Shown: positions 44,652 to 60,335 of the stretch, one piece after another
How positions within the stretch are numbered: the stretch's first letter is position 1
Layout: every line of letters begins with the position of its first letter
Assembly (NCBI RefSeq): GCF_003046585.1
Contig: NZ_QAAE01000001.1
Location: 248,001-312,000 of the forward strand
Length of the DNA stretch: 64,000 bases
DNA from: Nitrosomonas aestuarii
GTDB lineage: Bacteria > Pseudomonadota > Gammaproteobacteria > Burkholderiales > Nitrosomonadaceae
Direction: 5' to 3'
The notes under the pieces: generated by a model
What the model saw: the letters and a program-made list of their open reading frames with translations, nothing else
What the model was told of the DNA's origin: nothing
The model's database searches: none
Made by a program: the position numbers and the translations under genes

Positions 44652-45149
44652 TTACTCTCCGACTTTCAGGCCTAGTGGGCGACGCTCATTACCAATTGAT
44701 TCTTGAAGTAAGACCAATCCCTCTAACAATGCTTCTGGCCGCGGCGGGCAGCCCGGTACATAAACATCCACTGGAAGAATCTGGTCGATTCCCTGTACCA
44801 CGCTGTAGATATCATACATGCCGCCGGAATTGGCACAAGAACCCATGGAAATAACCCACTTGGGTTCGAGCATTTGATGATAGAGACGCAGGATCATGGG
44901 TGTCATTTTGATGAATACGGTACCAGAAATGATTAATAGATCAGACTGGCGCGGCGTGCCGCGCATGACTTCGGCACCGAAACGGGCTATATCGTGGCGC
45001 GGCGTAAAAGTTGCCATCATTTCAACAAAACAGCAGGAAAGTCCAAAATTGAACGGCCATAGGGAGTACTTCCGTCCCCAGGACACGACCTCTTCCAGTT
45101 TGCCGAAAACGGCTGTCAAAGGTCCTTGGTTATTTTGTCTGGGGCCCAT
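44652..45149 (-). CDS. nuoB: NADH-quinone oxidoreductase subunit B (cluster N2)
   Basis: NuoB carries N2, the last Fe-S cluster before quinone. The start is the ATG at 45149, 6 bases after a strong AAAGGAGGT. An earlier ATG at 45170 lacks this. Cluster ligands are the adjacent cysteines in [23 protein letters not shown] and [14 protein letters not shown]. The 165-residue length is normal. It overlaps the 3' end of nuoA by 34 bases. Confidence 0.97.
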
Positions 45150-45508
45150 GCCAAACCTCCTTTGCGCCATTCATAAATTAAACCAAGCAGCAGGATCGCG
45201 ATAAAAATGCAAGCGCCAACCACACCTCTGGCACCCAGTTCCCAATATGCTACAGCCCAGATAAAAAGAAAGACCGCTTCAATATCAAACACCAGAAAAG
45301 AGACGGCAACTATATAAAAACGCACCGGCATACGCGCACGCGCGTCACCTGTTGGAGGAATGCCGCATTCATAAGGCTGTTCTTTATCCCACTGTGACCG
45401 GTAGCCGCCCAGCCATCGGGACAACCAAAGCAAGCCCAACAGTGCAGACAATATAAGCAGTGCAAAAAGGCCGATAACAACAGCAGGTTCCAGGTTTTGC
45501 ATTTGCAT
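45116..45508 (-). CDS. nuoA: NADH-quinone oxidoreductase subunit A
   Basis: This three-helix membrane subunit is the first gene of the operon. It has [41 protein letters not shown] (spread over residues 42-80), which is the family hallmark with conserved Cys, Glu and Asp. Two start ATGs lie at 45508 and 45502; a GGGGA sits too close to the first and 8 bases before the second, so 45502 is likelier. The operon promoter must lie between 45509 and the decayed IS3 copy at 45774. Confidence 0.95.
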
Positions 45509-45773
45509 TCCCCATGGCTTTATGAACGGGTCTTAGAACTATTTGTATCTGCTGCATTCTTTTCCATTGATTTCTGCAAACAGTAAACATAAAAGCAGCT
45601 GGAAACGTAGCAGAGTCTGGAAAAAAGCTTTTATTCACAGAAGCTACGGTAAGTTGAATCAATTGTCAAGTAAGTGAATTATTGGTATGCCTTACAGATT
45701 ATGAGTCGCTTATTTTGGATGTTTTACCATTGCTGTTGCGTTAGTATAGAACTAAAGCCAATTGTTTGTCGGA

Positions 45774-46460
45774 CTTGAATTTGAGTTTTCGAGAGTCAAA
45801 CGCGAATTGGCAGAAGCCAAGATGGATCGGGACTTCATGAAAAAGTGTGCGGTCCTTCTTGTGAAGGAATTACGGTGAAATACGGGATAGTTGATTCTAT
45901 GCGACAAACTTATCCGGCAACTTTCATGTGTCGGGTATTTGATGTTTCAGAGAGTGGCTTTCACGCATGGATATTTCGGCCGAAAGTGTGAACAGGAACG
46001 TGAGAAAGGACGACTTGAAATAGAAATGCCGGCTGCGCATCAGTGTATCCGGGAAACCTATAGAGTAAAGCGCCTGCATAGTGATTTGACAGACCGTGGC
46101 GTGCGAACATTACGAGAGAAACTGGTTTTGCGTTGTAAACAGATGCAAAAATTCAAAATGACGACTGATTCCAGAGAATCTTTGCCAGTCGCTCCCACTG
46201 TTTTGAATCGGTAAATTGCTGTTAGCGCGCCTGACAAAGCGCGGGTAAGCGATCTTACTTATAGTGCTACTGCTGAAGGCTGGTTGAATCTGGCCGAAAT
46301 AAAGGATTTATTTGGTGGTAGACTGGAGGGTTGCGATGAGTGAGAATATTGCCAGGAAACTGGTTATACAAGCATTATTTCGGTCAACAGCGGATAGACA
46401 TTCATCTGCGGGGCTGATTCTGCGCTCGTATCCGTCGAAGTCAGTATTGTGCAAGTGAAT
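45774..46460 (+). pseudogene. Decayed IS3-family transposase (OrfA end and most of OrfB)
   Basis: The frame from 45774 codes for FSRVKRELAEAKMDRDFMKK, the leucine-zipper end of OrfA, to a TGA at 45878. OrfB begins at GTG 45875 (KYGIVDSMRQTYPATFMCRV) with the usual small overlap, but breaks at 45991. Pieces in other frames follow: KFKMTTDSRESLPVAPTVLN, ARVSDLTYSATAEGWLNLAE (the first catalytic Asp region) and remnants of GLIHHSDRGSQYC near 46415-46455. Many stops and shifts make it dead. It lies just upstream of the nuo promoter region. Confidence 0.8.
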
Positions 46461-46725
46461 ACCGGCAGCTTAATCCTGTGGACTCCATAGTCAACAACAC
46501 ACAGGAACATTGATGAGTATTTAAATCGGGCGAATTATAATAATTCAGCTTCCGTGATGAAATTTCGACAAACATTTTTTATTTGTCAGGTAATGCTTAT
46601 ATGAGTTACGGACATTTTACTGAATGACTGTGCTGAATTGAAAGCAGCTTTTCTATTGATGCAAAACTCGATATAGTTCAGCTGTCCAATGAAAGTAGAG
46701 ATCTGTAAAAAAAGGTGATGTACAT

Positions 46726-47148
46726 ATGAACAATGAATCAACTGAAAATAATAAAGATTCAACGAAAGGTAAAATTTCCTTTCCGCCCCTGACCAAGAAG
46801 GAATCGCCCGAGAGTGCGAGAGATCCGTTGCGAATATTAATGGAAATTGCCGCAGATCCTGATATTGATAGCAATACCAAGGCGTGGTTATTTGATTTCT
46901 CGGTCTCCCGGTTTAATAATCGCAGGCGCATGGCTTATCTTTCATTGATAGCTATAATCGTGTTCATGATTTTCTTGATTTTTGGTGCAGTGCATGACGG
47001 GATAAGTGTGTGCGTGGTAGAAAAAACATGTAAAGGTATCATGGCAAGTATCAGTGAGATTAAGGAATTACTGATATGGATAGGTGGTTTCTTAACCACT
47101 ATTGTTGCTGCCTATTACGGTGTAACCAGCTTTCGACCGTCAAGCTGA
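46726..47148 (+). CDS. Small membrane protein of unknown family
   Basis: The 140-residue frame has a polar, charged N-terminal part (about 1-65) with KAWLFDFSVSRFNNRRR, then two membrane segments: LSLIAIIVFMIFLIFGAV (about 73-90) and LLIWIGGFLTTIVAAYYGV (about 114-133). Between them are two Cys (SVCVVEKTCKG). The layout suggests a two-helix protein with its tail in the cytoplasm. AAAAGGTGATG lies before the ATG. I do not recognise the family. It stands between a dead IS3 copy and the rnfB-like gene. Confidence 0.6.
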   Translation: MNNESTENNKDSTKGKISFPPLTKKESPESARDPLRILMEIAADPDIDSNTKAWLFDFSVSRFNNRRRMAYLSLIAIIVFMIFLIFGAVHDGISVCVVEKTCKGIMASISEIKELLIWIGGFLTTIVAAYYGVTSFRPSS

Positions 47149-47239
47149 TTCATTTAAGATAATCTCTGTTGCTATTTGAGTCCACCATTACTTATATCCA
47201 TAAATTTTAAATTTTTATTAAAAATAAACAGGTTATTGT

Positions 47240-47890
47240 TTGAAGTTTGACAAAGCACTCATAAAAAAGATTGACGCTGTATTGCCACAAACGCAATGTG
47301 GTCAATGCGGGTTTGATGGTTGCGAACCTTACGCAACTGCAATTGTGGAAGGACGCGCAGATATTAATCAATGTCCGCCAGGTGACGCCAGTGGAATACA
47401 GAAAATTGCCGCGTTGTTGGATATCGACCCCAAACCGTTAAATACAAGTCACGGCTTGCCGAAACCCAGGGCGGTTGCAGTGATTGATGAGAATCTTTGT
47501 ATCGGCTGTACCTTCTGTATTCAGTCTTGTCCTGTGGATGCCATAGTCGGAGCTGCAAAGCTTATGCATACTGTGATCGCTGATGAATGTACCGGCTGTG
47601 AGTTATGCGTCGCGCCTTGCCCAATGGATTGTATTAGTATGGTCTCTGTCAGCGAGCAATCTGAATATGCCACTGAAGAATACAGCAAGAGAGCTGATCG
47701 GGCGCGTATGCGCTATCAATTCAGGCAGAAAAGGGTTGGACGGAAGAAAGTCAGTGTAAAAGAAAAAACCATTCTGGAAGCCCCGTCCAGGTCGGATGGC
47801 CCGCTACTTCCAAATGAAGAACGTAAGCATGCCATTGTGCAAGCGGCGCTTAAACGCGCTGCTGCCATGCGTGCGCAGGCGAATAAATAA
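47240..47890 (+). CDS. RnfB/RsxB-like ferredoxin protein
   Basis: The 216-residue protein starts at a TTG (47240), giving [20 protein letters not shown]. It has the four-Cys motif [13 protein letters not shown] and then CPPG, followed by two 4Fe-4S motifs, [16 protein letters not shown] and [16 protein letters not shown]. That is the RnfB layout without the N-terminal membrane helix, as often seen in betaproteobacteria. The tail is basic and Arg/Lys-rich. There are no other rnf genes here, so it likely acts as a separate electron carrier. nth follows after 30 bases, a common pairing. Confidence 0.88.
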
Positions 47891-47920
47891 TCTTGATTTG
47901 AGTCAATTGCAGGTAATTGT

Positions 47921-48553
47921 ATGAATTCAGTCAAGCGACACGAGATTTTTGTATGCCTGAAATCTGCGAATCCACACCCTACTACGGAACTGGAGTATCA
48001 AACGCCTTTTGAGTTATTGATAGCGGTAATTCTTTCCGCGCAGGCTACTGACAAAAGTGTCAATCTGGCCACACGAAAGCTGTTTCCGCAAGCCAATACA
48101 GCGCAACAATTGTTTGAGTTAGGCGCGGCAAGGCTGCTCGACTGTATTAAAAGTATTGGACTCTACAAAACCAAAGCTAAAAATATTCTTGCAACTTGTC
48201 AACTTTTGATTCAACAATATGACGGCGAAGTGCCGCGTACACGGGCGCAGCTGGAAAAATTGCCGGGTGTCGGCCGCAAAACTGCAAATGTTATCTTGAA
48301 TACCGCATTTGGGGAACCTACGATTGCAGTCGATACACATATTTTTCGTGTCGCAAACCGCACGGGGCTTGCGCCCGGTAAGAATGTGCTGGAAGTCGAA
48401 CGAAAGTTGCTTAAGGTGGTACCTAAAGAATACAGGCATGATGCCCATCACTGGTTGATTTTGCATGGACGCTACATCTGCAAGGCCAGAAAACCGGAAT
48501 GTGCCAAGTGCATTATTGCGCATTTGTGCGAATTCAAGGACAAAACGATTTAA
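47921..48553 (+). CDS. nth: Endonuclease III
   Basis: This DNA glycosylase/AP lyase repairs oxidised pyrimidines. In 210 residues it has the helix-hairpin-helix LEKLPGVGRKTANVILNTAF with catalytic Lys (GVGRKTAN), the catalytic Asp in AVDTHIFRVANRTGL, and the C-terminal 4Fe-4S ligands C-x6-C-x2-C-x5-C in CKARKPECAKCIIAHLC. The length and order are standard. It is 25 bases before the DUF1841 gene. Confidence 0.97.
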   Translation: MNSVKRHEIFVCLKSANPHPTTELEYQTPFELLIAVILSAQATDKSVNLATRKLFPQANTAQQLFELGAARLLDCIKSIGLYKTKAKNILATCQLLIQQYDGEVPRTRAQLEKLPGVGRKTANVILNTAFGEPTIAVDTHIFRVANRTGLAPGKNVLEVERKLLKVVPKEYRHDAHHWLILHGRYICKARKPECAKCIIAHLCEFKDKTI

Positions 48554-48577
48554 TTAATAATTTAAGCTTTTGATGAT

Positions 48578-49021
48578 ATGTTCAAACCAACCAGAGATCA
48601 GGCACGCCAATTATTCTTTGATACCTGGGGTAAATATCGCCGCAAAGAAGTATTGACGGGAATTGAACAAATTGCTTTGGAAGTGATCCTGTTGCATCCT
48701 GAGTACCACAGCATCCTTGAGAATGAAGTGCGTTACCGCGATCAAGATTATCTTCCGGAAATGGGCGATACCAATCCATTTTTGCACATGAGTATGCATG
48801 TTGCGATTAAAGAGCAGTTGTCCATTGATCAACCGATCGGTATCTGCGAGCGTTTCTTGCGATTACAACAACAGACAGGCAGCGAGCACGAGGCAACCCA
48901 TCGGGTGATGGAATGTCTGGCCGAGATGCTGTGGCAGGCGCAACGTAATCAGACTGCACCGGATGCAATTATTTACTTTGATTGTCTAGATAAACAGTTA
49001 ATAAAGCCGGTGAAAAAATAG
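48578..49021 (+). CDS. DUF1841 family protein
   Basis: The 147-residue protein starts MFKPTRDQARQLFFDTWGKY and contains NPFLHMSMHVAIKEQLSIDQ, both typical of DUF1841. The family is found mainly in betaproteobacteria, often next to nth. Its role is not known. It is probably in an operon with rnfB-like and nth (gaps of 30 and 24 bases). Confidence 0.87.
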   Translation: MFKPTRDQARQLFFDTWGKYRRKEVLTGIEQIALEVILLHPEYHSILENEVRYRDQDYLPEMGDTNPFLHMSMHVAIKEQLSIDQPIGICERFLRLQQQTGSEHEATHRVMECLAEMLWQAQRNQTAPDAIIYFDCLDKQLIKPVKK

Positions 49022-49102
49022 AAAATCGCATTGAACGCTCAAAACGACATATTTAAAAAGCAGAACAATATTCCAGATTTGGGGCGGACGAAAAATACCA
49101 GA

Positions 49103-49459
49103 CTATTCATCAAATTCATCGTCCAGAAAAGTGTCATCTGTCAGGTCATCGTCAACTAATCGTGTTTCGGTAGTTGTAGTCTCGCTGTTATCATGATTAA
49201 CTTGCCATGAGAAACTTAACCACATCAGGAATAACAAAATCAAAGAAAAAAGCAATAAGGATGTGTTCTTGTGCCATGAGATGCCTTCATGCGCTGCAAT
49301 ATTTTTTCCGGTATGGATGAAATTTTTCGATGATTCTAGTTTTTCCAAAGCAGCGCTACGTGCGGTTTGCAGTTTTGTTGCAGTGTTTTGGTTGATATTT
49401 TTCAAGTCTTGATTCAATAACCTGACTATTGTCTTACTTATCTGATCATCGTGATTCAT
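49103..49459 (-). CDS. DUF3619-type membrane protein
   Basis: The start is the ATG at 49459, which overlaps the sigma factor stop (ATGA). The 118-residue protein has a polar N-terminus (ISKTIVRLLNQDLKNINQNT), one membrane helix (LLLFSLILLFLMWLSFSW near 67-85) and an acidic tail rich in Asp/Glu/Thr. This matches DUF3619 proteins found next to such sigma factors in betaproteobacteria. It may act as a membrane partner of the sigma factor; no anti-sigma motif can be seen. Confidence 0.75.
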   Translation of the reverse strand: MNHDDQISKTIVRLLNQDLKNINQNTATKLQTARSAALEKLESSKNFIHTGKNIAAHEGISWHKNTSLLLFSLILLFLMWLSFSWQVNHDNSETTTTETRLVDDDLTDDTFLDDEFDE

Positions 49460-50037
49460 AATGTGATTCCTTTTTCTTTCAGAAGTATAGCAAGTGTATT
49501 CGCTGCGCGTGAGCAGTGTGTTTTTACACTTCCTTCTGAACATCCCATGACTTTGGAGGTTTCGCTTACATCCATTCCTTCCCAATAACGTAATAAAAAG
49601 GCTTCCCGTTGACGTGCAGGTAAAGCTTCCAGCGCTTTCTCAATAATTTTAATTAATTGCGACTGCTCTAGTACTAAATTTGGATTTTTACCATAACTCT
49701 GATCGCTTGGAGAGGGTAATATTTCCGAAAATTCATAATCGTAAATTTCTTTCTCGTTTTGGATTCGTTGTGGTGCAAATGTGGAAAGCAGTGAACTAAA
49801 TAAAGAACGCGTTTTTTGGCGCCGGTAGTGATCGTGAATGGTATTTTGTAATATTCGTTGGAATAGCGGAGGAAGCTCATCAGGAGGCTTGTCGGCATAC
49901 TTGCTGGTTAACTTCATCATTGAATCCTGTACAATGTCCAATGCATCCTGTTCATCACGTACAGCAAATAAGGCCTGTTTGAAAGCGCGCAATTCAACTT
50001 TCTCTAGAAAATCAGAAAATTCAGATCTTGTAGCCAA
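49456..50037 (-). CDS. RNA polymerase sigma factor, ECF-like
   Basis: The 193-residue protein has region 2 (FKQALFAVRDEQDALDIVQD, with DHYRR near 75) and region 4 (LPARQREAFLLRYWEGMDVS then GCSEGSVKTHCSRA, a helix-turn-helix). It lacks regions 1 and 3, like ECF factors. The downstream gene overlaps by 4 bases and codes for a DUF3619 protein. A 13-bp inverted repeat lies 53-116 bases upstream. Confidence 0.9.
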   Translation of the reverse strand: MATRSEFSDFLEKVELRAFKQALFAVRDEQDALDIVQDSMMKLTSKYADKPPDELPPLFQRILQNTIHDHYRRQKTRSLFSSLLSTFAPQRIQNEKEIYDYEFSEILPSPSDQSYGKNPNLVLEQSQLIKIIEKALEALPARQREAFLLRYWEGMDVSETSKVMGCSEGSVKTHCSRAANTLAILLKEKGITL

Positions 50038-50089
50038 GTAAATTAGCCTTTAAATTAAATAAACCGGCGACATAGTGGCAAATTTTATG

Positions 50090-50153
50090 ATCCTGCAGAT
50101 TCGTATTCAAAGAGTGCATCATTTGATTGTCTCGGGGCTTGAATCTGCAGGAT
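50090..50153. repeat. 13-bp inverted repeat upstream of the sigma factor gene
   Basis: ATCCTGCAGATTC at 50090-50102 is the exact reverse complement of 50141-50153. The 38-base gap is too long for a tight hairpin unless the inner bases also pair. TTTTTG follows on the plus strand, so it could end plus-strand transcription; alternatively it is an operator pair for the sigma gene. Confidence 0.45.
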
Positions 50154-50242
50154 TTTTGTGCACAAGAGATTAGTTTCATCTAGTCTGAAATGTTCGGAAC
50201 AGCTTCATCTAAATATGAGAGCATTGAATGCTCGAATTATTG

Positions 50243-50545
50243 TCAGAAATTTTCTTCCCCGCTTTCGATTCTTCGTTTCCATTTAATTGTCAGGTATGTT
50301 CCCAGGTAGGCACCAATAAAGGCAGCAAATATATATATCTGATTTTCTACATAATTAGTCACAGTGAATGAAGTAACCAGAATTATCATCGCTGACCAAA
50401 GCGATGCAGGGTGTGCTTTTCTTCCTTCTACATCAATAAAATAAAGAGTCCAGAAAACATCTGCAAGTGCCATTGCCATCATGATTAGTAAAAACTTCGT
50501 AACTGAAAATTCCATGTCAAAATCCTGCATATGGTGATAACTCAT
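50243..50545 (-). CDS. Small inner-membrane protein of unknown family
   Basis: The 100-residue frame has three hydrophobic segments (FLLIMMAMALADVFWTLYFI, ASLWSAMIILVTSFTVTNYV, IYIFAAFIGAYLGTYLTIKW). This resembles short membrane proteins of the DUF5698 or small-permease type, but I cannot place it. It is on the same strand as the DapF-like gene, 130 bases downstream, and might be the last gene of that group. Confidence 0.6.
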   Translation of the reverse strand: MSYHHMQDFDMEFSVTKFLLIMMAMALADVFWTLYFIDVEGRKAHPASLWSAMIILVTSFTVTNYVENQIYIFAAFIGAYLGTYLTIKWKRRIESGEENF

Positions 50546-50674
50546 TTTAAAGCTCGGAAGTGCATTTACATTGCTAGCCGTGTAAATGCTCAGTACGCTT
50601 TCTCTCAGTCAATTTTGCGATATAGTAATTTTCCGTGGCAACGTTAGTTCAGTTTAATGTGAGGCATACATTTT

Positions 50675-51511
50675 TTACATGCTTAACCATGCATAGTCTC
50701 GCGGCCAATGAAAGGTAGGTGATACAGATTTCGGGTGAAGTGTATTAACAAATCCGATAACCTTACCCTGATAGCGCGTCAGACCGCTGATTGATAAATG
50801 TCCGTCATTGTCTTTGATTTCAAGCCTACCTCCCAGTGAATGTGTGATGATCGGAAACGCTGTTCCGAAAACACGGGATGCAACAAAAGCACTTGCCGCA
50901 CTGCCGGTTCCGCAGCTTTGGGTGATATTCTCAACACCTACTTCATAAGTACGTACAGAAATACTTTCTTCATCGCGCCAGATAAAATTCACGTTAACGC
51001 CTTCCGGATGACCGAGGAATTCACATAAGGATTTTTCTTCCCGTAAGGATCTGCCCACAGCTCTTGCGGTTTCTTCATCAAGGCTGGAACCGATAACAAC
51101 GACATGGGGGACACCGGTAAAGACGAAGTGCAGATGTTGATCAATCTGTTGGTAACTGCGTGCCTCTCCCAGATTTACTTCAACAAGACCATCGTGCACA
51201 AACACATCCTTTTTGCCGTCACCGGTCAAGATTGAAAACCTGTCGGTGGGAATATAGGCATCACGGAAATAGCGCGTTGCACATCGTAATCCATTGCCGC
51301 ACATGGTTTCTTCGGTGCCGTCACTATCAAAAATCCGCATTGTAGGAAAATCCTGCTGTCTATCTACATAGAGAATGCCATCGGTATCATGCTGCGTCGC
51401 TAATGCATTTGCAATCTGCGCTCGGTCAAATCCCGCAAGAGGTGTTCTCATTTCATCGACCACCAAGAAAGAATTACCGCATCCATCCATCTTCGTTGCT
51501 TTGATTCTCAT
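50675..51511 (-). CDS. DapF-fold amino acid epimerase/racemase, probably not diaminopimelate-specific
   Basis: This 278-residue protein has the two-cysteine, PLP-independent racemase active site: C71 in MCGNGLRC and C200 in SCGTGSAAS. The length and two-fold lobes match DapF. The residues that hold the distal carboxylate in Haemophilus DapF, as I recall them (Asn64, Asn157, Asn190, Arg209), are changed at three places: FNADG is FDSDG (D62), GNPH is GVPH (V134) and YERG is YEVG (V191). Only the VN near 173 stays. So diaminopimelate is an unlikely substrate. It follows a GNAT gene and an ATP-grasp ligase gene on the same strand. The ATG at 51511 lies 10 bases after GAGG. Histidine-racemase-type DapF homologues of opine metallophores are a precedent. 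Confidence 0.85.
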   Translation of the reverse strand: MRIKATKMDGCGNSFLVVDEMRTPLAGFDRAQIANALATQHDTDGILYVDRQQDFPTMRIFDSDGTEETMCGNGLRCATRYFRDAYIPTDRFSILTGDGKKDVFVHDGLVEVNLGEARSYQQIDQHLHFVFTGVPHVVVIGSSLDEETARAVGRSLREEKSLCEFLGHPEGVNVNFIWRDEESISVRTYEVGVENITQSCGTGSAASAFVASRVFGTAFPIITHSLGGRLEIKDNDGHLSISGLTRYQGKVIGFVNTLHPKSVSPTFHWPRDYAWLSM

Positions 51512-51645
51512 TGTCTTATCGCCTCATGCGCTGGAATAAAAAATTGGCTACAAATTGACCGGGGTATAAATATTTCTAATTATGGGTAGTTCAAATTTAG
51601 GCGGGTTTTCCGAAGAAGATCCTGAAGTGATCATTATTTAAATAT

Positions 51646-52104
51646 TCAGTAAGGTTTATAACCCATCCGTCTTGTCAGATGCGCCTGCGCCACGCCTGAA
51701 ATAAATTCATCCTGAACAATACCTGTAAGTACAAATCCATTCTTGAGGTAGAAGCTCAAGCTCTCGTTTGCATCAGCATCTGTAGTTACATTCAGGATTC
51801 TTCCTCCTTGTTTCTCGAGTTCGACAAAGATGCCATCCAGCAGTAGTGAGCCATATCCTTGGCCGCGATGATTTTTGTCTACAGCGATGGTAAGTAAGTG
51901 GTAGGTATCAACCGTTTTTTTAACAATCACATAGCCAACAGGATGTTCGTTGTGCATCACACAGATACCAAAACACTTGCCGCGCTTGATATCCTCAAGT
52001 TCATCATTGATGTCAGATTGGTACATGGCACCAATGTCCTGTAGGGCGATCTTCACAAGGTCTGGGTAAACGTTTTCTGAGATAGGCACGATTACGGTTT
52101 TCAT
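51646..52104 (-). CDS. GNAT-family N-acetyltransferase
   Basis: The 152-residue protein has a GNAT fold: LLTIAVDKNHRGQGYGSLLL contains the acetyl-CoA loop RGQGYG near 91-96, and ANESLSFYLKNGFVLTGI is the C-terminal motif. Its ATG overlaps the stop of the ATP-grasp gene (ATGA), and AGGAGA lies inside that gene's end. The two proteins are therefore probably made together. The substrate could be the amino group of the ligase product or precursor (inference). Confidence 0.88.
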   Translation of the reverse strand: MKTVIVPISENVYPDLVKIALQDIGAMYQSDINDELEDIKRGKCFGICVMHNEHPVGYVIVKKTVDTYHLLTIAVDKNHRGQGYGSLLLDGIFVELEKQGGRILNVTTDADANESLSFYLKNGFVLTGIVQDEFISGVAQAHLTRRMGYKPY

Positions 52105-53201
52105 TGTTCTCCTGCCCGTTTGCCTAAAAGTGTATACGTCCGGTCCTGGTAGATGATCGTGCCAGCTTTCGCAACATTATTAATCACAGAATTTGCCAGA
52201 TTCTCAAGTAATTCGGTCTTGTCAGCGAATCTTGTCGGATATGACTTGGTGAGTCGTTGTGCTGCTGCATTTACGATCAGTGCAACCATGTCATCATGTT
52301 TGATACCTGCATGGCGGCACATGTTGGTAAGATCAGCTTCTGTTGGATGGATGCCGGGAATGACATTGGCTTCAAGAAAATAGAGTTGGTTATCCCGTTC
52401 ACGAAAATCCATGCGGTTATAATCACGTACTTCCAGCGCTTCATGTGCTGCAATTGCAAACTTAGCAAATTGTTTTGCTCTGTCAGTCCAGTCAAGATGC
52501 GAAATATAAGGGTTCTCAATATCTTTTACATGTGGATCACGTACTTGTGGTTGCCCTGGAATCTTGGCAAAGTCAATCTCTAAGATCGGTAGCATATGGT
52601 TCCCGATAAGACCTACCGTATATTCATTTCCAGGTAAAAATTCTTCGACCAGTGCAGGCTGATTGAACTGTGTGTAGATCGACTCAACGACTTCATTCAA
52701 TTCCAGCGTGTCGTTTACTTTACTTTTCTGACTGATACCAATGCTTGTTCCTTCACTGCAGGGTTTTACCATCAGGGGAAAGGACAAATCCTTAAGCTTT
52801 TCTCCTGGTTTCATAAGTTGAAATCGCGCAGTCGGCACAGCATCATACGCGACGATTTTTTTTGCTGTTGCTTTGTCCATTTTGTTGATAAATGTCTTTG
52901 GACTACTGCCTGTATACGGAATATGCAGGTGTTCGCAAAAGAATGGAACTATGGCTTCACGTAATTCCTTTTCATCGAGACCTTCGGCATTATTAAACAC
53001 AAGGTCAATGCGATGCCTGCGTTTTTCGAGTTGAAAATAAATGTCGGGACCTACATCAATCAGTTCAACATGTGCGCCGGTACGTTCCAGTGCGGCCGTC
53101 ACGGCTTCAATGGTGGCAGGACTTTCAAATTCACCATATCGTTCATCTTCCATACCCGGTTTTCTAACGTTACAAGTATAAGCAATATTGAGTTTTTTCA
53201 T
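52101..53201 (-). CDS. ATP-grasp ligase of the D-alanine-D-alanine ligase type
   Basis: This 366-residue ATP-grasp protein ligates a carboxylate and an amine at the cost of ATP. Motifs follow Ddl order: DLVFNNAEGLDEKELREAIV (near 72), PYTGSSPKTFINKMDK, MVKPCSEGTSIGISQKS (ATP-binding), PALVEEFLPGNEYTVGLIGN and the Mg-binding DFRERDNQLYFLEANVIPGI, then HPTEADL. Ddl usually has HGxxGEDG and NTxPGMT; the changes here (FNNAEG, NVIPGIHPTE) set it apart. It starts the group with the GNAT and DapF-like genes. No strong ribosome binding site is seen. Confidence 0.87.
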   Translation of the reverse strand: MKKLNIAYTCNVRKPGMEDERYGEFESPATIEAVTAALERTGAHVELIDVGPDIYFQLEKRRHRIDLVFNNAEGLDEKELREAIVPFFCEHLHIPYTGSSPKTFINKMDKATAKKIVAYDAVPTARFQLMKPGEKLKDLSFPLMVKPCSEGTSIGISQKSKVNDTLELNEVVESIYTQFNQPALVEEFLPGNEYTVGLIGNHMLPILEIDFAKIPGQPQVRDPHVKDIENPYISHLDWTDRAKQFAKFAIAAHEALEVRDYNRMDFRERDNQLYFLEANVIPGIHPTEADLTNMCRHAGIKHDDMVALIVNAAAQRLTKSYPTRFADKTELLENLANSVINNVAKAGTIIYQDRTYTLLGKRAGEQ

Positions 53202-53922
53202 GGTTGAGGCAAAGTTGATAAAATTAAACCTGTCTTTCAGGTGAACCGGGTCAAGTCAATAAATATTCAGAAAGAACCTCCATCGGCCGATTAACAAAAC
53301 ACATGATCATGCTCAACATTGATATTAATTTATAAAGTTAGACATAAGAAGGGGTTTCATAGGTTGGAATCATTTCTGTAAAATTTTTAGAGCACCACAT
53401 ATCTTCGAGGCAGAATGGTAACGCTACATTAACGTTGCGTTGTTCAATCGGTTTACATAAAAAAATAAAATTGTTAACGACAGTAGTGTGAACTTCTTTG
53501 ATGGTGTAGTAATGCTGATTCAATGAAGAATTTTCGTTTAGAAACTACTGGCTAAGCAATTGTTCCTTATAACTATTGTCTATTTGTGGAAAATTTCTTA
53601 GTGTTTATGTGCAGCTTTAGGCTGATATTGATTGATTGGCTGGTAGTTCAGAATGATTCGTAGCCGGCGATCAGATGCCACACGGCGGGAGAGGTGGTTG
53701 TTAACAGGTGCAGTCAAATCTTTGGTGATATTGATATCCCTGCCATTTGTTTTGGTATAAATTGATTGTTAACGTAAAAAATCAGCTCTGGTGTCTGGTG
53801 TAAACAGAGTATTTTAATCTGGACAGTGTAGTGAATTGCAGGCCGGTATTAACTTTATGCCATATGGCTAGTTTCTGGGGACGCACTGCGACTGTTTTTT
53901 TCAGGCGCAGTGCCATTGATAA
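53202..53922. other. Gene-poor region with a decayed minus-strand frame
   Basis: There is no intact gene over 721 bases. A minus-strand open stretch, 53768-53598, codes for a basic, protein-like tail (NNHLSRRVASDRRLRIILNY, ending AAHKH). It has no start codon, and an upstream piece in other frames (53880-53770) also looks protein-like. Together they suggest a frameshifted small gene. A further 61-codon frame (53523-53338, TTG start, no ribosome binding site) is not supported. Confidence 0.4.
53598..53768 (-). pseudogene. Possible remnant of a small gene
   Basis: The 56-codon open stretch ends with a TAA at 53600-53598. Composition is natural (INITKDLTAPVNNHLSRRVA), but there is no initiator; just upstream (higher coordinates) the reading frame stops and appears to continue in another frame. 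Family unknown. Confidence 0.3.
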
Positions 53923-55560
53923 TCAAAGTCTGGGAGCAATATGTCCGGTTACATCCAGCGCATCCTTGGCATCACTCCAGTTGACGGTATCTTCAACAAA
54001 ATAGTCAAAAGTGCGCGGCATCGCACTTTTTGTTTTTTCGTTATAGTTGATAATGTCCAGAATAAATAAGCTGCGCAAAACACCGCGGCGGCGATAGCCG
54101 GTCTTTTTTCTGGAAACAATCTGATCCCGCCAGGTACCGAAATTGATATAGGTTACCGGGTACTCAGTGTTCAGATTAGGTTCTTCCTGCAACGGTTTGT
54201 GGGTATGCCCTTCACCGTGAATCTGGAAATTGTAGTGACGATATATGGGCAAAAAACTGGGGAATGTTTTCATCACCGACAGCTTGACACTGGGTTGTTG
54301 CATTCTGTCGAAAAATGCCAGAATACGCATCAGAGCAGCAATTGATTTAATTTCTAGTCCATGGCCAATTGATTTCATGATTTCCAAAATACGCTTGGCA
54401 AGCTTGAGCCCTTTTCTGCGCAGCGCCGGAGAAGACTGGTAAGTAAAGTCCCAGCTGAGCCATTCAAGAATGCATTCATATAGTGTGTCTTCAATGATGT
54501 CGATAATTTTTTGATCCTTGTTCTGCTCGCGCATTTTCGCTGCTTCTTCCAGTACCCTATTGACAGCGGCGTAAGTCGGACGGTAAAGATCCAGTTCATC
54601 GAGAATACTGTCTAGGCGCGGGTCATTGCAATTGGCGTCATCCAGTTTTTTCTTGGCTTTATATATAAAGGTTGACAATACCCCGGCGGCAACCGAGTCA
54701 CCGAAACAAGGTTCGAAAAAAGGTGAAAATTTCAATTGCTGCCAGGTTTCAATTTGCCAGCCGTTGGCAACTTTCCAGCCGGGTCGGCCTTTTTCTGCTT
54801 TGATACGGCGACTGTTTGCTTCATCACGCCATTGTCCATGCGTGGTAAAAAACCGAAAACCGGTATCACCATAGTAAAAAGGTAGATACGGTGCTTGATC
54901 TGGATCTAGAAACATGATTTCGTCACCGTACATGCGACCCAGCATTCTGCGTTCTTCTTCTGGAATTTGACTGACATTGCGCCCCAGTCCTTGTTCGTAA
55001 AAATACTTTAATGCTTTTGGATCACAAAACAGCTCCTTGTCATGATTGCCGATCGTGATCACTATTCTGGCCGAGATATTGCTGAGTTGGTTTTCCTGTC
55101 TGAGTTTGCTTTCCAGTTCACGCAGCCATTGGAAAAAGTATGCATGCTGATTTTCTACGATATCTTGAATAATGGCATTGACGACAGCGGAAAATTCTTC
55201 TTTTCTATTCCGTTCCCATGGATAGATAGGCGGCTCATGCGCTGCCCATTTACTGCTGCGGATCATATCGACGACATCGCCGTCCAGCACAAAGACAAGC
55301 TCGTTAATGGCATATCGAATGCAGCGCTGCTTTATGGTGTCGTAAAAGGAATTCCAGATCGCATCATTTAAGTTCTGGAATCCAACCGTGCCATCTGTTA
55401 AATGAATATCGCTAACACTGACGCACAGGCGATTGCCTCTGTCCTCAGGCGGTTCATTGACTTCAAGTGTACGTCGTTCAACTTTGCCAAGACCTATGGT
55501 TTTACACATTTTATCTATGAGTCCGGTTTGTTGCTTTTGATCAGTCTGACTGGAATTCAT
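53923..55560 (-). CDS. Large metallophosphoesterase (calcineurin-like)
   Basis: This 545-residue protein has the five metallophosphoesterase blocks: SDIH at 50-53, GDVVD at 94-98, GNHD at 171-174, THGQ at 240-243 and GEGHTHKP near 460. Two metal ions are expected at the active site. Between blocks four and five lies an insert of about 200 residues, mostly helical, with many charged residues (for example AKMREQNKDQKIIDIIEDTL). That is much longer than in typical members. It has no signal peptide, so it is probably cytoplasmic. Substrate unknown. It stands alone with unassigned flanks. Confidence 0.85.
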   Translation of the reverse strand: MNSSQTDQKQQTGLIDKMCKTIGLGKVERRTLEVNEPPEDRGNRLCVSVSDIHLTDGTVGFQNLNDAIWNSFYDTIKQRCIRYAINELVFVLDGDVVDMIRSSKWAAHEPPIYPWERNRKEEFSAVVNAIIQDIVENQHAYFFQWLRELESKLRQENQLSNISARIVITIGNHDKELFCDPKALKYFYEQGLGRNVSQIPEEERRMLGRMYGDEIMFLDPDQAPYLPFYYGDTGFRFFTTHGQWRDEANSRRIKAEKGRPGWKVANGWQIETWQQLKFSPFFEPCFGDSVAAGVLSTFIYKAKKKLDDANCNDPRLDSILDELDLYRPTYAAVNRVLEEAAKMREQNKDQKIIDIIEDTLYECILEWLSWDFTYQSSPALRRKGLKLAKRILEIMKSIGHGLEIKSIAALMRILAFFDRMQQPSVKLSVMKTFPSFLPIYRHYNFQIHGEGHTHKPLQEEPNLNTEYPVTYINFGTWRDQIVSRKKTGYRRRGVLRSLFILDIINYNEKTKSAMPRTFDYFVEDTVNWSDAKDALDVTGHIAPRL

Positions 55561-55841
55561 CGTATATGCTCCTTTTATGCTTATGCCAAATACGTTTAAA
55601 ATATCCGGAAAGTACGTGTATCATTTGAAAATGAATGCCTTTCTGAACAGCGTAACCTGGTGGTTTTTTCTTTTTCATGCAATCTTTTAGAATTTACCAG
55701 CTTTCGGGAAACAGGTGTTAAGTGTTTAATCCGATACCGATGCAGATAGTACGATCAATAATTTTTGATACTGTGATGTGATGCAGAAAAATTTTCAACA
55801 GCTTGTTCGTGCCAGTATTATTGACAATTAGCATGATTTCT

Positions 55842-56279
55842 ATGACCGTTCGGATTCGACCTGTTGAACATTCTGATTACGACTGGCTGCTAGACCTTCA
55901 TCATACCGTCTATCGTGAATTGATTATAAAAGAATTTGGATACTGGGATGATGATGAAGAACTTGGATTGTTTCTTGAAGCCTGGGAGACAAAGAAAATC
56001 GATATCATTATGAAGCAAGGCAATTCTGTGGGTATGTTTATTATCGATAGTAAAAATGATTATTTGTGGCTGGATGAAATTCAAATACATCCGCAATATC
56101 AAAACCAGGGTATCGGCACAGAAGTTATTGTGCAGCTCATCCTGCGCGCACGAAAACTGAGTTTGCCGTTGCGTCTGCGCGTATTACACGCCAACCAGGG
56201 CGCGTATCGGTTGTATCAAAAACTGGGGTTCCGACAAATCAGCAGTGCAGCGCATCACAACGTGATGGAATTGAGTTAG
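55842..56279 (+). CDS. GNAT-family acetyltransferase
   Basis: With the ATG at 55842 (MTVRIRPVEHSDYDWLLDLH) the protein has 145 residues; an ATG at 55833 adds three. The acetyl-CoA site is IHPQYQNQGIGTEVIVQL (QNQGIG), followed by LRVLHANQGAYRLYQKLGFR. Some distance before it is DDDEELGLFLEAW, acidic. The fold is clear, the substrate is not. It stands before the DCC-family gene with a 118-base gap. Confidence 0.87.
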   Translation: MTVRIRPVEHSDYDWLLDLHHTVYRELIIKEFGYWDDDEELGLFLEAWETKKIDIIMKQGNSVGMFIIDSKNDYLWLDEIQIHPQYQNQGIGTEVIVQLILRARKLSLPLRLRVLHANQGAYRLYQKLGFRQISSAAHHNVMELS

Positions 56280-56397
56280 CCCTGCATCGGCTGGCATTAA
56301 CAGTTTGTTGAAAAAATTTTAAGGAGTCAGCTTCAGCTCCAATTTTTCCAAGAATATTACTTCATCGTTTCATCAGTTATTTTCAGGGAGAGCGCAT

Positions 56398-56769
56398 ATG
56401 GATCAAAGCAACAGGAAAATTACTGTTTATTATGATGGCGCCTGTCCCAGTTGTGTAAAGGACCGGGACAGTTATGAAAAAATGGCCGGTAAAGCAGGGG
56501 AGGATGTATGCTGGTTTGATATTACCGGACAAGATACGCAATTGCGTGGAATCGGAATTGATCCCCATAAAGCGATGACCGAATTGCATGTGCGTGATGA
56601 GCATCAGCGGGTCGTGTCAGAACTGGATGCCTATATACTGTTGATGCAACGGGTACCGCGACTCAAACCGCTGGCCTGGTTGATCAGTTTGCCGCTGATA
56701 CGGCCAATGTTGTCGACTCTTTACCGACGGATGGTCAGAAAACGCCTGAAAAGAACTGGACGTATGTAA
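56398..56769 (+). CDS. DCC-family (DUF393) thiol-disulfide oxidoreductase-like protein
   Basis: The 123-residue protein has the DCC signature YYDGACPSCVKDRDSY near 11-26 (D-x2-C-x2-C), a thioredoxin-like fold mark. The region SELDAYILLMQRVPRLKPLA and then LPLIRPMLSTLYRRMVRKR matches the C-terminal half of the family. CAGGGAGAG lies before the ATG. Function is unknown for the family; a redox role is likely. It ends 2 bases before the convergent GGDEF gene. Confidence 0.87.
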   Translation: MDQSNRKITVYYDGACPSCVKDRDSYEKMAGKAGEDVCWFDITGQDTQLRGIGIDPHKAMTELHVRDEHQRVVSELDAYILLMQRVPRLKPLAWLISLPLIRPMLSTLYRRMVRKRLKRTGRM

Positions 56770-56771
56770 AC

Positions 56772-57911
56772 TTATTTTGTGGTGATAATCCGGTTGCGTC
56801 CAGATTCCTTTGCTTCATAAAGATGTTTATCTGCAGCAGACATATAGCTGTCTATGGTATCGATTTCATCAGGTATCCTGGTGACTGTACCAACGGTGAC
56901 CGTCAAATATGGTGAGACACTGCTGTATTTATTCGGAATATGCAGGCCCTCAATTTCTTTTCTGATAATTTCAGCAAATTCTGCAGTGCCGTGTATGTCC
57001 AGGTTGGACGAAATAATACCAAATTCTTCACCGCCAAGCCGAAAGGCATAATCACCGGGGCGCTGACAAATTATTTTTAATTGCTGGCTTATCCTGATCA
57101 ATATGTGGTCGCCTTCGCTATGTCCGTAATTATCATTGATTTGTTTAAAAAAATCGATGTCGATGAAGATAAGTGCTAAAGGTAATTTTTCCCGTCTTGC
57201 CCGCTTGAGTTCGCGCATAAATATACTGTTAAAATGTCGGCGATTATACAGATCCGTCAACTGATCGGTAATGGAGAGCGACTCCAATCGTAAATTAGCT
57301 TTTCGCAATTGCTTATTGGTTTTGTGCAGCTTCTTTTCAATTTTCTGCCGCGCGTGACTTTCACGGATGAGCGCCAGTGTCCGGGTGGATAAACTGTCAT
57401 ACATCTCCATTACGGTTTCGATCAGAATTCTGATTGAGCCGTTCATTTTTTTGTCGGCGGCAATCTTGGCTTCTTCAAGCGGCATCCCTTTGTGAATATT
57501 TTCAATGCACAGTGCCATGCGTTTATCATTATCCATAATATGGAATGCCAGCCAACGAATGAGGAACAATATGATGCATTCAATGATTTCTGTCTGTGAT
57601 TTATTGGTTTCCTGCTCTTTGATTTCGATCACTTTGGGTAAAAAAAATGAGTGACTGAGCTGGTGGGACGACAGCCACGAATCATCCCCAAAGTAGTCTA
57701 CCCAGATCGCCTCTTCCATTTGAAAATGATATTCAGCATATTTTGCCAATTCACTAAAAACATGATTAATTTCAATCGGGTTGTCTCGCGTAATTGTCGA
57801 GGCCAGTTCATTTAACAATGAAATGAGCATTTTGTGTTGTTCATCGATTACTTCAATGCCTATTTCAAAATTTTTATTCCATGGAAATACTTCGAATTTA
57901 TTCTGAGGCAT
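56772..57911 (-). CDS. Bacteriohemerythrin-GGDEF diguanylate cyclase
   Basis: The 379-residue protein has two parts. Residues 10-135 form a hemerythrin domain with iron ligands H26 (DEQHK), H62 and E66 (YHFQMEE), H83 and H87 (SHQLSH), H124 and D129. A linker with a coiled-coil look (KKLHKTNKQLRKANLRLESL) leads to a GGDEF domain, with the active site RLGGEEFG (GGEEF at 293-297) and the inhibitory I-site RPGD at 284-287. The protein can bind O2 or NO and make cyclic di-GMP, so it likely tells the cell about oxygen. No membrane segment is present. Confidence 0.93.
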   Translation of the reverse strand: MPQNKFEVFPWNKNFEIGIEVIDEQHKMLISLLNELASTITRDNPIEINHVFSELAKYAEYHFQMEEAIWVDYFGDDSWLSSHQLSHSFFLPKVIEIKEQETNKSQTEIIECIILFLIRWLAFHIMDNDKRMALCIENIHKGMPLEEAKIAADKKMNGSIRILIETVMEMYDSLSTRTLALIRESHARQKIEKKLHKTNKQLRKANLRLESLSITDQLTDLYNRRHFNSIFMRELKRARREKLPLALIFIDIDFFKQINDNYGHSEGDHILIRISQQLKIICQRPGDYAFRLGGEEFGIISSNLDIHGTAEFAEIIRKEIEGLHIPNKYSSVSPYLTVTVGTVTRIPDEIDTIDSYMSAADKHLYEAKESGRNRIITTK

Positions 57912-58119
57912 ATTATTATTATTAAATAGACACTTGAAGTGATCGGAAACAACAGATTTTTACCATACAGAAAAGCTGTGTTTAATGAAAGGGCATATCT
58001 TATCATTCTTATTTATGCGTGTCCTGATAATATACCTACATATATTGTGGGTATATGTGAAAATAAAACAGCGTCCATTCATGCGCATGTTTTGAAATAG
58101 CAACGCACTTGCAGAGAAA

Positions 58120-58302
58120 TTAATATCTATCGACTTTAATTTGAACGAGGGAATTACGGCCTACAGATTTACTGCAGGTGTAGAGGGAGATTTGGCCGCC
58201 GGGAGTTTTGCAAGTTGATTCTTGTGAAATTCTGCTGGTATAGATATTTTTGTGATTATGTAAGATGCTATACGCTTTCACTTGCTGATACCCGACTGCC
58301 AT
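58120..58302 (-). CDS. Possible small ORF downstream of corA
   Basis: The 60-codon frame from the ATG at 58302 lies 14 bases after corA. It contains VGYQQVKAYSILHNHKNIYT and, near the end, ISLYTCSKSVGRNSLVQIKV. A similar pattern, YEQAKVHGIFRFPYRSVSH, occurs in the ORF on the other side of corA (59690-59493). No ribosome binding site is clear, so this may be a remnant of a longer secreted, Cys-containing protein. Confidence 0.35.
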   Translation of the reverse strand: MAVGYQQVKAYSILHNHKNIYTSRISQESTCKTPGGQISLYTCSKSVGRNSLVQIKVDRY

Positions 58303-58315
58303 CAGGCTTGAAGAA

Positions 58316-59428
58316 CTACAGCCATTTTTTCTTCCTAAAATAAATCAATAAGCCAATGCCGATAGCAATAAAAATGATCCATAAAGCAGGATAGGCCCAG
58401 CGCCATTTCAATTCCGGCATATGCTCAAAATTCATCCCGTATATACCGGCGATGAATGTGAGCGGTATGAAAATGGACGCAAAAATAGTCAGAATCTTCA
58501 TGGTTTCATTCAATTTATTGCTGATACTGGAGAGGTAAATATCCTGGATGGAGGCAATTCTTTCCCGGTAGGAATCAAGTGAATCGGTTACACGCAGCAC
58601 ATGATCATGCACATCGCCGTAATAACGTAGTGTTTTTTCATGCAGCAGGGCAGTATTGGCATGTTGTATTGTCGTCAGCAGTTCGCGTAGCGGAGAAATG
58701 CTGCGCTTCATGGCAATCAGATTGCGACGAAGCAGTTGTATGGTATGCAGCATTTCTTTGGTTGGATTGGATAGTAAACTGTCTTCCAGTGGATCGATAA
58801 TGTCATCCAAGCAATCTTCAACCACAAAATATTCATCCACAATGGTATCGAGCAATACATACGCTAAGTAATCACTGCCACTTTGCCGCAGACGATCCTT
58901 ACGATTCTGCATGCGGTAGTAAACAGGTTTGAAAATCTCATCGGCTTTTTCCTTGAAAGTAATGACATAATTTGCGAGTAATAAAATACTGATCTGTTCA
59001 TATCGTAAATCAAGATTGCCGTTGTATTGTGCGCTGATGCTTTTGATAACCAGATAAATATAATCTTCATATTCTTCCAGTTTGGGCCGCTGATGTGTGC
59101 TTAAAATATCTTCCAGTACCAGGGGATGAATATTGAGTTCAGCACCAATGTGTTCAACGATGCTGGTGTCACTTAATCCGTCAATATTAACCCAGATAAT
59201 CGACTTATTATCTTGCAATTGCTGTAATTCCGATATCGATTTGATTTCACACTGCTTCAACGTATCCTCGTTGTATTGCGTGATCGATATGCGGCATGCA
59301 GTCTCGTGTTTTTTGCCGATATGCACCAGTGAGCCTGCCGGTAATCCGGATTTATCCGCAGCGCTGCGCAAAACTGTTTTGTTTGTCTGCTTGTGCAGGC
59401 GGTGCCATACCGGATACTTGAAATTCAT
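58316..59428 (-). CDS. corA: CorA-type magnesium/cobalt channel
   Basis: CorA is a pentameric inner-membrane channel for Mg2+ (also Co2+ and Ni2+). The 370 residues have a large cytoplasmic domain with HPLVLEDILSTHQRPKLEEY near 120, a long stalk helix, and two C-terminal helices: ILTIFASIFIPLTFIAGIYG, ending in GMNFEHMPEL (the GMN selectivity motif), then WAYPALWIIFIAIGIGLLIY and a basic RKKKWL end. All typical. Nickel leak through CorA would matter beside urease, but that is speculation. The start at 59428 is supported by LKF-type basic N-terminus but not by a strong ribosome binding site. Confidence 0.94.
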   Translation of the reverse strand: MNFKYPVWHRLHKQTNKTVLRSAADKSGLPAGSLVHIGKKHETACRISITQYNEDTLKQCEIKSISELQQLQDNKSIIWVNIDGLSDTSIVEHIGAELNIHPLVLEDILSTHQRPKLEEYEDYIYLVIKSISAQYNGNLDLRYEQISILLLANYVITFKEKADEIFKPVYYRMQNRKDRLRQSGSDYLAYVLLDTIVDEYFVVEDCLDDIIDPLEDSLLSNPTKEMLHTIQLLRRNLIAMKRSISPLRELLTTIQHANTALLHEKTLRYYGDVHDHVLRVTDSLDSYRERIASIQDIYLSSISNKLNETMKILTIFASIFIPLTFIAGIYGMNFEHMPELKWRWAYPALWIIFIAIGIGLLIYFRKKKWL

Positions 59429-59492
59429 GATAATTGCCCTATGAGCGTTTCAGTGATTTGATCAATCTATATAACTACATGAATGGCGAAAT

Positions 59493-59690
59493 TCACTCCA
59501 GCTCAATCTGACCGTGCGATACAGATCGGTACGGAAAGCGGAAGATGCCATGCACTTTCGCTTGTTCATACTGACACTGGTCATTCTGCTGAATGAAGTA
59601 ACAAGAATCATAGGATGAAGGATATAAGGAACAGTCCAAATCACATCGTGCATGATGAATGTTTCTCGCAACGACGATACAATTTGTCAT
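59493..59690 (-). CDS. Possible small Cys-containing ORF upstream of corA
   Basis: The 65-codon frame (ATG at 59690) contains five Cys, in NCIV, RCDLDC, DSCYF and DQCQYEQ, then YEQAKVHGIFRFPYRSVSHG. It looks like a shortened secreted protein. The pattern Y-[EQ]-Q-x-K-x2-x-I is shared with the 58302-58120 frame. No export signal is complete and no ribosome binding site is seen; it may be a fragment. Confidence 0.35.
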   Translation of the reverse strand: MTNCIVVARNIHHARCDLDCSLYPSSYDSCYFIQQNDQCQYEQAKVHGIFRFPYRSVSHGQIELE

Positions 59691-59720
59691 GTTCCGTATG
59701 GCATATATAAAATAACCTGC

Positions 59721-60335
59721 TCAGTGCAGAGGTGTGACACGTATTACGCGCTGATCGTCGGCAAACTCCAGCAGCAGCCGGCGTACACGTTCCTGCCAGG
59801 CATCGGCGAAGGCAGTCTGTTGTGAGGCATCGGCACAATTTTGCAGGATCGCCATCAAACGTTCCCCCTGAGCCGGATCGACCGGTATCAGGGAAACATC
59901 GAGCGTCACTGAGACAGTGGCACCGGTATCAAGTCGTTTGAAGACAATGGCTTCGCCCTGACGATCATTCGCAAAACTAAGCAGTCCCTTGCGTTTAAAG
60001 CGGCCGCGGATACCCTGAAATCCATTACTTGCGGCTGCACCGGTCAGCAGCGTCAATACCTGAGCCATGACGCCGGTCGTGCCCTCATCTTCTGGTGCAG
60101 GCATATGCACGGAAATATTGCCGCGTTCGGCCGGTTCGTCAGGATAAAGTGCCGCCAGCGCCGCGCGGCCGATCAGAAATGCACCGGCAACGGTAGGACA
60201 AGAATGTCCGGCCAATCGTACGGCATCCTCATAATGGTAATCAAGCAGACCGTCACGGGCGGCGCCCAGCGTGGCGGCAAAGGAATCATAAGTGCGCACA
60301 ACCGGCGCTTTTGCATAAAAATCAGGAAAACTCAC
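59721..60335 (-). CDS. FmdE-domain protein
   Basis: The protein resembles the E subunit family of formylmethanofuran dehydrogenase operons (FmdE domain). The GTG at 60335 (SFPDFYAKAPVVRTYDSF) is 7 bases after AGAGG and is preferred over the GTG at 60344. Residues 44-60 hold the domain mark HSCPTVAGAFLIGRAAL with conserved His and Cys. The C-terminal half has no zinc ribbon. In bacteria the domain occurs in proteins of unclear role, possibly metal binding. A truncated, frameshifted copy of this gene lies at 62300-62412. Confidence 0.78.
   Translation of the reverse strand: MSFPDFYAKAPVVRTYDSFAATLGAARDGLLDYHYEDAVRLAGHSCPTVAGAFLIGRAALAALYPDEPAERGNISVHMPAPEDEGTTGVMAQVLTLLTGAAASNGFQGIRGRFKRKGLLSFANDRQGEAIVFKRLDTGATVSVTLDVSLIPVDPAQGERLMAILQNCADASQQTAFADAWQERVRRLLLEFADDQRVIRVTPLH

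Follow-up and report, generated by a model that had tools for sequence, protein, structure and literature searches.

The analyzed stretch, called the window below, spans 64,000 nucleotides of the Nitrosomonas aestuarii genome (RefSeq assembly GCF_003046585.1, contig NZ_QAAE01000001.1, positions 248,001 to 312,000), and carries on its minus strand a module of four genes encoding an ATP-grasp ligase, a GNAT acetyltransferase, a DapF-fold protein designated here DapF2, and a small membrane protein (Table 1). Three of these, the ligase, the GNAT and the DapF-fold protein, had been named in the original prediction, made from the letters alone, and open reading frame (ORF) and Pfam checks agreed with their families, strand, coordinates and the ATGA overlap; the fourth conserved gene had been missed. 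The GNAT and DapF2 genes are separated by 134 bases. DapF2 scored 157.9 bits against the NCBIfam diaminopimelate (DAP) epimerase equivalog DapF (TIGR00652; cut-off 114.65), and annotation pipelines will therefore label it dapF. The ligase fell below the cut-offs of all 25 NCBIfam models displayed (25 of 37 matched), its best score being 134.5 bits where the Ddl model requires 243. In an alignment, the organism's own Ddl has SHSL at the putative acceptor site, and the module ligase has TEAD there; the Ser-Leu pair is presumably part of the Ddl acceptor site.

Table 1. Genes of the module and diagnostic codons of DapF2, in window coordinates
Feature	Position	Strand	Description
First module gene: Ddl-like ATP-grasp ligase, distinct from Ddl itself	52101..53201	-	366 aa; PF07478 (Dala_Dala_lig_C), 79 bits
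GNAT acetyltransferase; gene overlapping that of the ligase at ATGA	51646..52104	-	152 aa; PF00583, 53.5 bits
DapF2, predicted DapF-fold, two-cysteine racemase	50675..51511	-	278 aa; PF01678 (DAP_epimerase), 94.5 bits
Small membrane protein, three predicted helices; fourth gene of the module	50243..50545	-	about 100 aa; found in all 27 betaproteobacterial loci
Codon of catalytic Cys71	51299..51301	-	aligns with the first catalytic Cys of DapF
Codon of catalytic Cys200	50912..50914	-	aligns with the second catalytic Cys of DapF
Codon of Asp62 (DapF Asn64)	51326..51328	-	Asp in 33/33 DapF2 rows; Asn in 18/18 other rows
Codon of Glu68, three residues before Cys71	51308..51310	-	Glu in 33/33 DapF2 rows; Ala, Val, Pro or Gly in 18/18 others
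Codon of Val191 (DapF Arg209)	50939..50941	-	Val, Met or Ala in 33/33 DapF2 rows; Arg in 18/18 others
Codon of Val134 (DapF Asn157)	51110..51112	-	not diagnostic; Val in 6/18 other DapF rows too

The prevalence of the module was examined in 125 genomes of the family, all those examined, 99 of which are of good quality. DapF2 was present in 34 genomes (29 of the good-quality ones), and a close homolog of the ligase (E<=1.2e-194) occurred in exactly the same 34, the next ligase appearing only at 3.5e-61. The membrane protein adjoined DapF2 in all 34, with a contig end cutting it in two (G008 and G374). Homologs of DapF2 with 67–75% identity were found in 12 of 36 same-genus relatives, and the ligase, GNAT and fourth gene adjoined every one of them; none at that level of identity was detected in the 24 same-order relatives searched. 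A scan of genome_contigs with two exact heptapeptides, which diverged relatives can escape, returned 30 loci: 27 with the module, two from Candidatus Aminicenantes, and one unrelated DapF (25% identity). By title, 26 of the module loci belong to Nitrosomonas, Nitrosovibrio or Nitrosomonadaceae and one is given just as Proteobacteria. The order ligase, GNAT, DapF2, membrane protein was kept in all 27 of these betaproteobacterial loci, the last gene being truncated by a contig end in two (L033 and L038). Median ratios of nonsynonymous to synonymous substitution (dN/dS), taken from pairs with dS between 0.05 and 1.5, were 0.079 for DapF2, 0.089 for the GNAT, 0.085 for the ligase and 0.094 for the membrane protein, and an internal stop was present in one of the 24 membrane-protein rows. 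Low ratios for all four genes, combined with the fixed order, indicate more than chance: the module is real, under purifying selection and co-inherited, and the supposition that its genes are conserved together was borne out.

Beyond the four genes, each window ORF recurred in at most six of the 30 loci, and the neighborhood therefore gives no clue to the substrate; the queries were window ORFs of at least 80 residues, and genes that other loci share and the window lacks lay outside the search. In the two Aminicenantes loci, an ATP-grasp gene lies directly before a DapF-like gene whose product is 39–42% identical to DapF2, and a tree of 30 sequences placed the Nitrosomonadaceae and Aminicenantes DapF2 proteins on one branch with support of 100/100. 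A sample of 398 genomes from the phylum yielded a DapF2 match at E<=1e-34 in the source genome only. Among 297 genomes of the Aminicenantes phylum, there were the two DapF2 carriers and eight other matches at 1.1e-36 to 5.7e-31, seven of which carry FN[AP]D and ERG; the eighth (L068) was omitted for its ORF length. A search of viral contigs for DapF2 found none, every plasmid and phage match was below 60% identity, and the module was not seen in two plasmid dapF neighborhoods (Streptomyces and Neochlamydia).

Next, the active site of DapF2 was compared, over 33 DapF2 rows (31 distinct proteins), with that of 18 other DapF rows, the 768-residue ORF of L068 being excluded. According to the cited parts of two studies, the distal carboxylate of the substrate is bound in Haemophilus numbering by Asn64, Asn157, Asn190 and Arg209 (PMC8225329) and in Anabaena DapF by Arg216, Asn66, Asn164 and Asn197, where a backbone NH together with Asn66 and Glu215 binds the distal amine (PMC12039745). 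DapF2 shares with DapF the fold, both catalytic Cys, and the proximal site (N13, G72, N73 and G201 in DapF2), with Asn13 corresponding to Asn11 of DapF, and retains Glu208 (as E190) and Asn190 (as N173). The four distal-carboxylate residues Asn64, Asn157, Asn190 and Arg209 correspond to D62, V134, N173 and V191, so that one of the four is retained. Replacement of Asn64 by Asp, replacement of Arg209 by Val, Met or Ala, and a new Glu68 distinguish the whole DapF2 clade from other DapFs, whereas the change of Asn157 to Val in the protein studied here does not. At the Asn190 position, all Nitrosomonadaceae rows have Asn and both Aminicenantes rows have His.

These results refine the original prediction, which had inferred a pocket unlike that of DapF and hence a racemase acting on another amino acid. 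The residues it listed (C71, C200, FDSDG, GVPH and YEVG) are all as described, and the changes at Asn64 and Arg209 within FDSDG and YEVG, which alter the distal-carboxylate site, extend across the clade; the Val of GVPH, by contrast, is also present in six other DapFs and is not specific, Asn190 is retained, and Glu68 had been overlooked. The predicted structure of DapF2 has the DapF fold, and its closest solved structures are mostly DapFs; the best match by VIA-align was O-ureidoserine racemase (PDB 7vdy), nearly tied with DapF. As a separate observation, DapFs of the Aminicenantes phylum with FN[ASP]DG and ERG (L115–L144; also L060 and L061) have both catalytic Cys replaced by Ser. This double Ser (SGNG and SGSG or SGTG) occurs in 27 of 30 Aminicenantes-phylum loci, with L129, L138 and L139 falling outside the pattern used.

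DapF2 is not the sole DAP epimerase gene of the genome. A canonical DapF, whose existence had been raised in the original prediction, is encoded on contig C9 with FNAD, GNPH, ERG and all four distal residues, and a separate Ddl of 305 residues is encoded on contig C13. The DapF2 gene adjoins the ligase and GNAT genes, and the canonical dapF is located elsewhere in the genome. Specialized DapF-fold racemases of small-molecule pathways are already known (PddB, O-ureidoserine racemase and CntK). DapF2 itself is most likely no DAP epimerase, and the best reading of the sequence is a racemase for another amino acid, encoded beside a ligase and an acetyltransferase.

DapF2 would act as a two-cysteine, cofactor-free racemase. 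In its pocket, the grip on a distal carboxylate would be mostly lost through the changes at Arg209, Asn157 and Asn64, and three acids (Asp62, Glu68 and Glu190, the retained Glu208 of DapF) would surround the end of the side chain. Loss of most of the carboxylate grip, retention of the amine side and gain of two acids together point to a cationic side chain without a far carboxylate. The substrate would be a basic amino acid of this kind, and since removal of the far carboxylate from DAP gives lysine, this amino acid is the foremost candidate, followed by ornithine or arginine. The Ddl-like ATP-grasp enzyme would then couple the D-amino acid to a partner via an amide bond, the GNAT would acylate a free amino group, and placement or export of the product would be assisted by the membrane protein; what the racemase acts on, the sequence of reactions, the end product and the part played by the membrane protein are all predictions from the genes. 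Our leading but tentative proposal, held with less than even confidence, is that the module is a self-contained four-gene biosynthetic unit with a racemase for a basic amino acid, lysine first.

To place the ligase among its relatives, its alignment was compared with a class sample of 369 genomes, in which 13 places outside the source genome matched at E<=1e-45. A KamA-family, lysine-aminomutase-like protein adjoined the ligase in 12 of these 13 loci, and a second ATP-grasp and a GNAT stood alongside in 11 (on the opposite strand in L105), giving clusters of KamA, ATP-grasp, ATP-grasp and GNAT in other proteobacteria (L101–L108 and L110–L112); L113 ends with its contig. The thirteenth locus, L109, is of another type, in which the ligase is fused and its gene neighbors one resembling gamma-glutamyltransferase. 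A stretch YYLYQCDP was present in all 15 KamA ORFs checked and a D..GGGGK stretch was matched in 13 of them; we take the two to carry the Asp pair for the epsilon-amine of lysine. The module and KamA-cluster ligases share an N-terminal stretch resembling EF.S..TI and a C-terminal stretch G..P..[SA]DL, neither of which occurs in Ddl among the rows compared. What the two systems share is an ATP-grasp enzyme, the nearest one in profile score, together with a GNAT and an enzyme isomerizing a free amino acid. They differ in that the KamA clusters have a radical-SAM aminomutase rather than a racemase and a second ATP-grasp, and that the membrane protein was not seen there; conversely, neither KamA nor a second ATP-grasp adjoins the module in the window. 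As parallel systems, the module and the KamA clusters are suggestive only. In the open-licence literature, no paper was found joining KamA with an ATP-grasp, or an aminomutase with an ATP-grasp and an acetyltransferase.

Several other loci with ATP-grasp or KamA genes were observed alongside. A similar KamA cluster is present in two same-genus genomes without the module (L079, 1097–6892, and L080); the L079 KamA scored highest against lysine 2,3-aminomutase AblA (468.8 bits, below the cut-off of 525.4) and passed the KamA family cut-off. Plasmid pTHIMO01 of Thioflavicoccus mobilis, typed as conjugative, carries together a 2,4-diaminobutyrate (Dab) transaminase, SbnA, an ornithine-cyclodeaminase-like protein, a related ATP-grasp and KamA (L056, 3557–9038). 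The source genome itself encodes on contig C1 (L078, 6839–10764) a 765-residue Ddl-like ATP-grasp fused to a peptidase-like C-terminal half, followed by what we read as a gamma-glutamyltransferase-like gene.

A number of observations weigh against a module built around a racemase for a basic amino acid. DapF2 exceeds the curated DapF cut-off and keeps Asn190 as N173, and the Val at position 157 recurs in six other DapFs with FN[AP]D and ERG (L062–L067), two of which (L063 and L065) adjoin a gene whose translation we read as lysA-like. Glu68 is also compatible with histidine. The two Aminicenantes loci have no match to the GNAT or the membrane protein, and trees join the module ligase to the Aminicenantes ligase only weakly. 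The module ligase also groups weakly with the KamA-cluster ligases (75/67 and 78/68), a grouping lost without Ddl and the Thioflavicoccus row, and the GNATs of the two systems are barely alike (best score 25.6 bits).

Four other assignments for DapF2 were weighed. The first is a histidine racemase like CntK and HisR, whether or not a metallophore is made, to which we give a low probability. CntK and HisR share with DapF2 the DapF fold, the two Cys and independence from cofactors, and the original prediction had cited the histidine racemase of opine metallophore clusters as a partial precedent. In the cited part of a study of HisR (PMC11602996), Glu65 is suggested to bind the imidazole, and its counterpart in Corynebacterium DapF is given as Ala80 (three residues before Cys83), the place occupied in DapF2 by Glu68. 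The precedent is strengthened to that extent; however, HisR Glu65 lies two residues before Cys67 and Glu68 three before Cys71, so that the match relies on the alignment of those authors. Thr69 was considered as the counterpart of HisR Glu65 and dropped, as Glu68, invariant in the clade, fits better. Structurally, CntK and HisR are 13–15% identical to DapF2 and score below both DapF and O-ureidoserine racemase. No metallophore gene was present among the window genes that recur around DapF2, a comparison in which genes absent from the window were not searched.

The D-cycloserine pathway includes an ATP-grasp enzyme. A comparably low probability goes to DapF2 racemizing a neutral-tailed or modified amino acid, like the O-ureidoserine racemase of D-cycloserine synthesis, which likewise combines the DapF fold with a specialized pathway; here the GNAT could act first, and its product would then be the substrate of the racemase. 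The acids D62, E68 and E190 in or near the side-chain pocket would better suit a cation, no window gene beyond the four is conserved around the module, and no other gene of D-cycloserine type is among the conserved neighbors of DapF2.

There is a small chance that DapF2 is a second, divergent DAP epimerase still serving lysine or peptidoglycan synthesis. Its score above the NCBIfam cut-off, its retention of both Cys, Glu208 and Asn190, and the predominance of DapFs among the nearest solved structures are all consistent with this role. Set against them are the canonical DapF already in the genome, the patchy distribution of the module (34 of 125 family genomes), and the clade-wide loss of Arg209, a binder of the distal carboxylate in the cited parts of both studies (PMC8225329, PMC12039745).

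A Dab racemase like PddB is an unlikely assignment, again with only a small chance, even though both proteins are DapF-like, retain Glu208 and have lost the distal-carboxylate site with Arg209 changed to Val and Gln44 to Gly (the latter common in DapFs too), and even though the related ATP-grasp on the Thioflavicoccus plasmid adjoins Dab- and Dap-making genes: as described in the cited part of PMC8225329, PddB has lost all three distal Asn, whereas DapF2 keeps Asn190, and PddB has an N-terminal extension of 27–28 residues and an adjacent poly-D-Dab synthetase, whereas DapF2 begins where DapF begins and its neighbors are an ATP-grasp ligase, a GNAT and the 100-residue protein; furthermore, a search for Dab transaminase with TIGR00709 (E<=1e-80), which did not extend to EctB-type enzymes, found it in six of the 125 family genomes, namely four of the 34 with the module, leaving 30 including the source genome without it, and two of the 91 lacking the module.

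The membrane protein was examined separately. Its homologs mostly start at or near MEFS, and the true start may lie near 50515; the three helices come from a low-confidence model with a predicted local distance difference test score (pLDDT) of 64.8. Searches of Pfam and PHROGs gave no match, and comparisons with phages and plasmids gave no phage match and one weak plasmid match. Orphan copies, apart from the other three genes, were present in nine family genomes, all carriers of the module. Of the ten orphan places, seven were examined (L091–L095, L097 and L098; six genomes), and none of these showed a racemase, ligase or GNAT match; no neighbor was common to all, and L092 and L095, as well as L093 and L097, represent the same place in related genomes. 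Short or broken remnants of the membrane protein occurred in three further family genomes (G366, G018 and G407). Two remnants from module-free genomes, L096 (about 7476–7739, broken) and L099 (about 6078–6203, short), both adjoin a gene that we read as isoaspartyl-peptidase-like, and appear to be relics of either a lost module or an orphan copy.

Around the module, an Rfam scan of window positions 45000–60000 gave zero matches, promoter-like sites occurred at chance level only, and six terminator-like sites were seen against 2.8 expected. Upstream of the module, a 545-residue protein (53923–55560, minus strand) shows by eye the phosphoesterase-like motifs SDIHL, GDVVD, GNHD and GHTH and has no Pfam match at E 0.01.

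Since DapF2 exceeds the curated DapF cut-off, the name dapF hides a probable new racemase. Few substrates of cofactor-independent racemases are known: the cited part of a 2024 paper gives DAP, Asp, Glu, Dab, Pro, hydroxyproline, O-ureidoserine, Ile and His (PMC11602996), a list that a lysine, ornithine or arginine racemase would lengthen, and the authors of the PddB study describe lysine and ornithine as hoped-for cases (PMC8225329). Among the open-licence papers matching a PLP-independent lysine racemase, no title named a cofactor-independent enzyme of this kind, and no paper was found in that literature pairing a DapF-like racemase with an ATP-grasp, or describing both in Nitrosomonas. If the lysine reading holds, both substrate and product are new. 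A bolder version, which we regard as possible but rather doubtful, is that DapF2 is the first racemase to act on lysine (or ornithine or arginine) without a cofactor, that the module leads to a new family of N-acylated D-lysine amides made in ammonia-oxidizing bacteria without a nonribosomal peptide synthetase or the ribosome, and that the KamA clusters use a ligase of the same kind for parallel beta-lysine versions. Within the family, the module is small and strictly co-inherited, and, if the proposed pathway is correct, would indicate that nitrifying bacteria make a metabolite not yet described.

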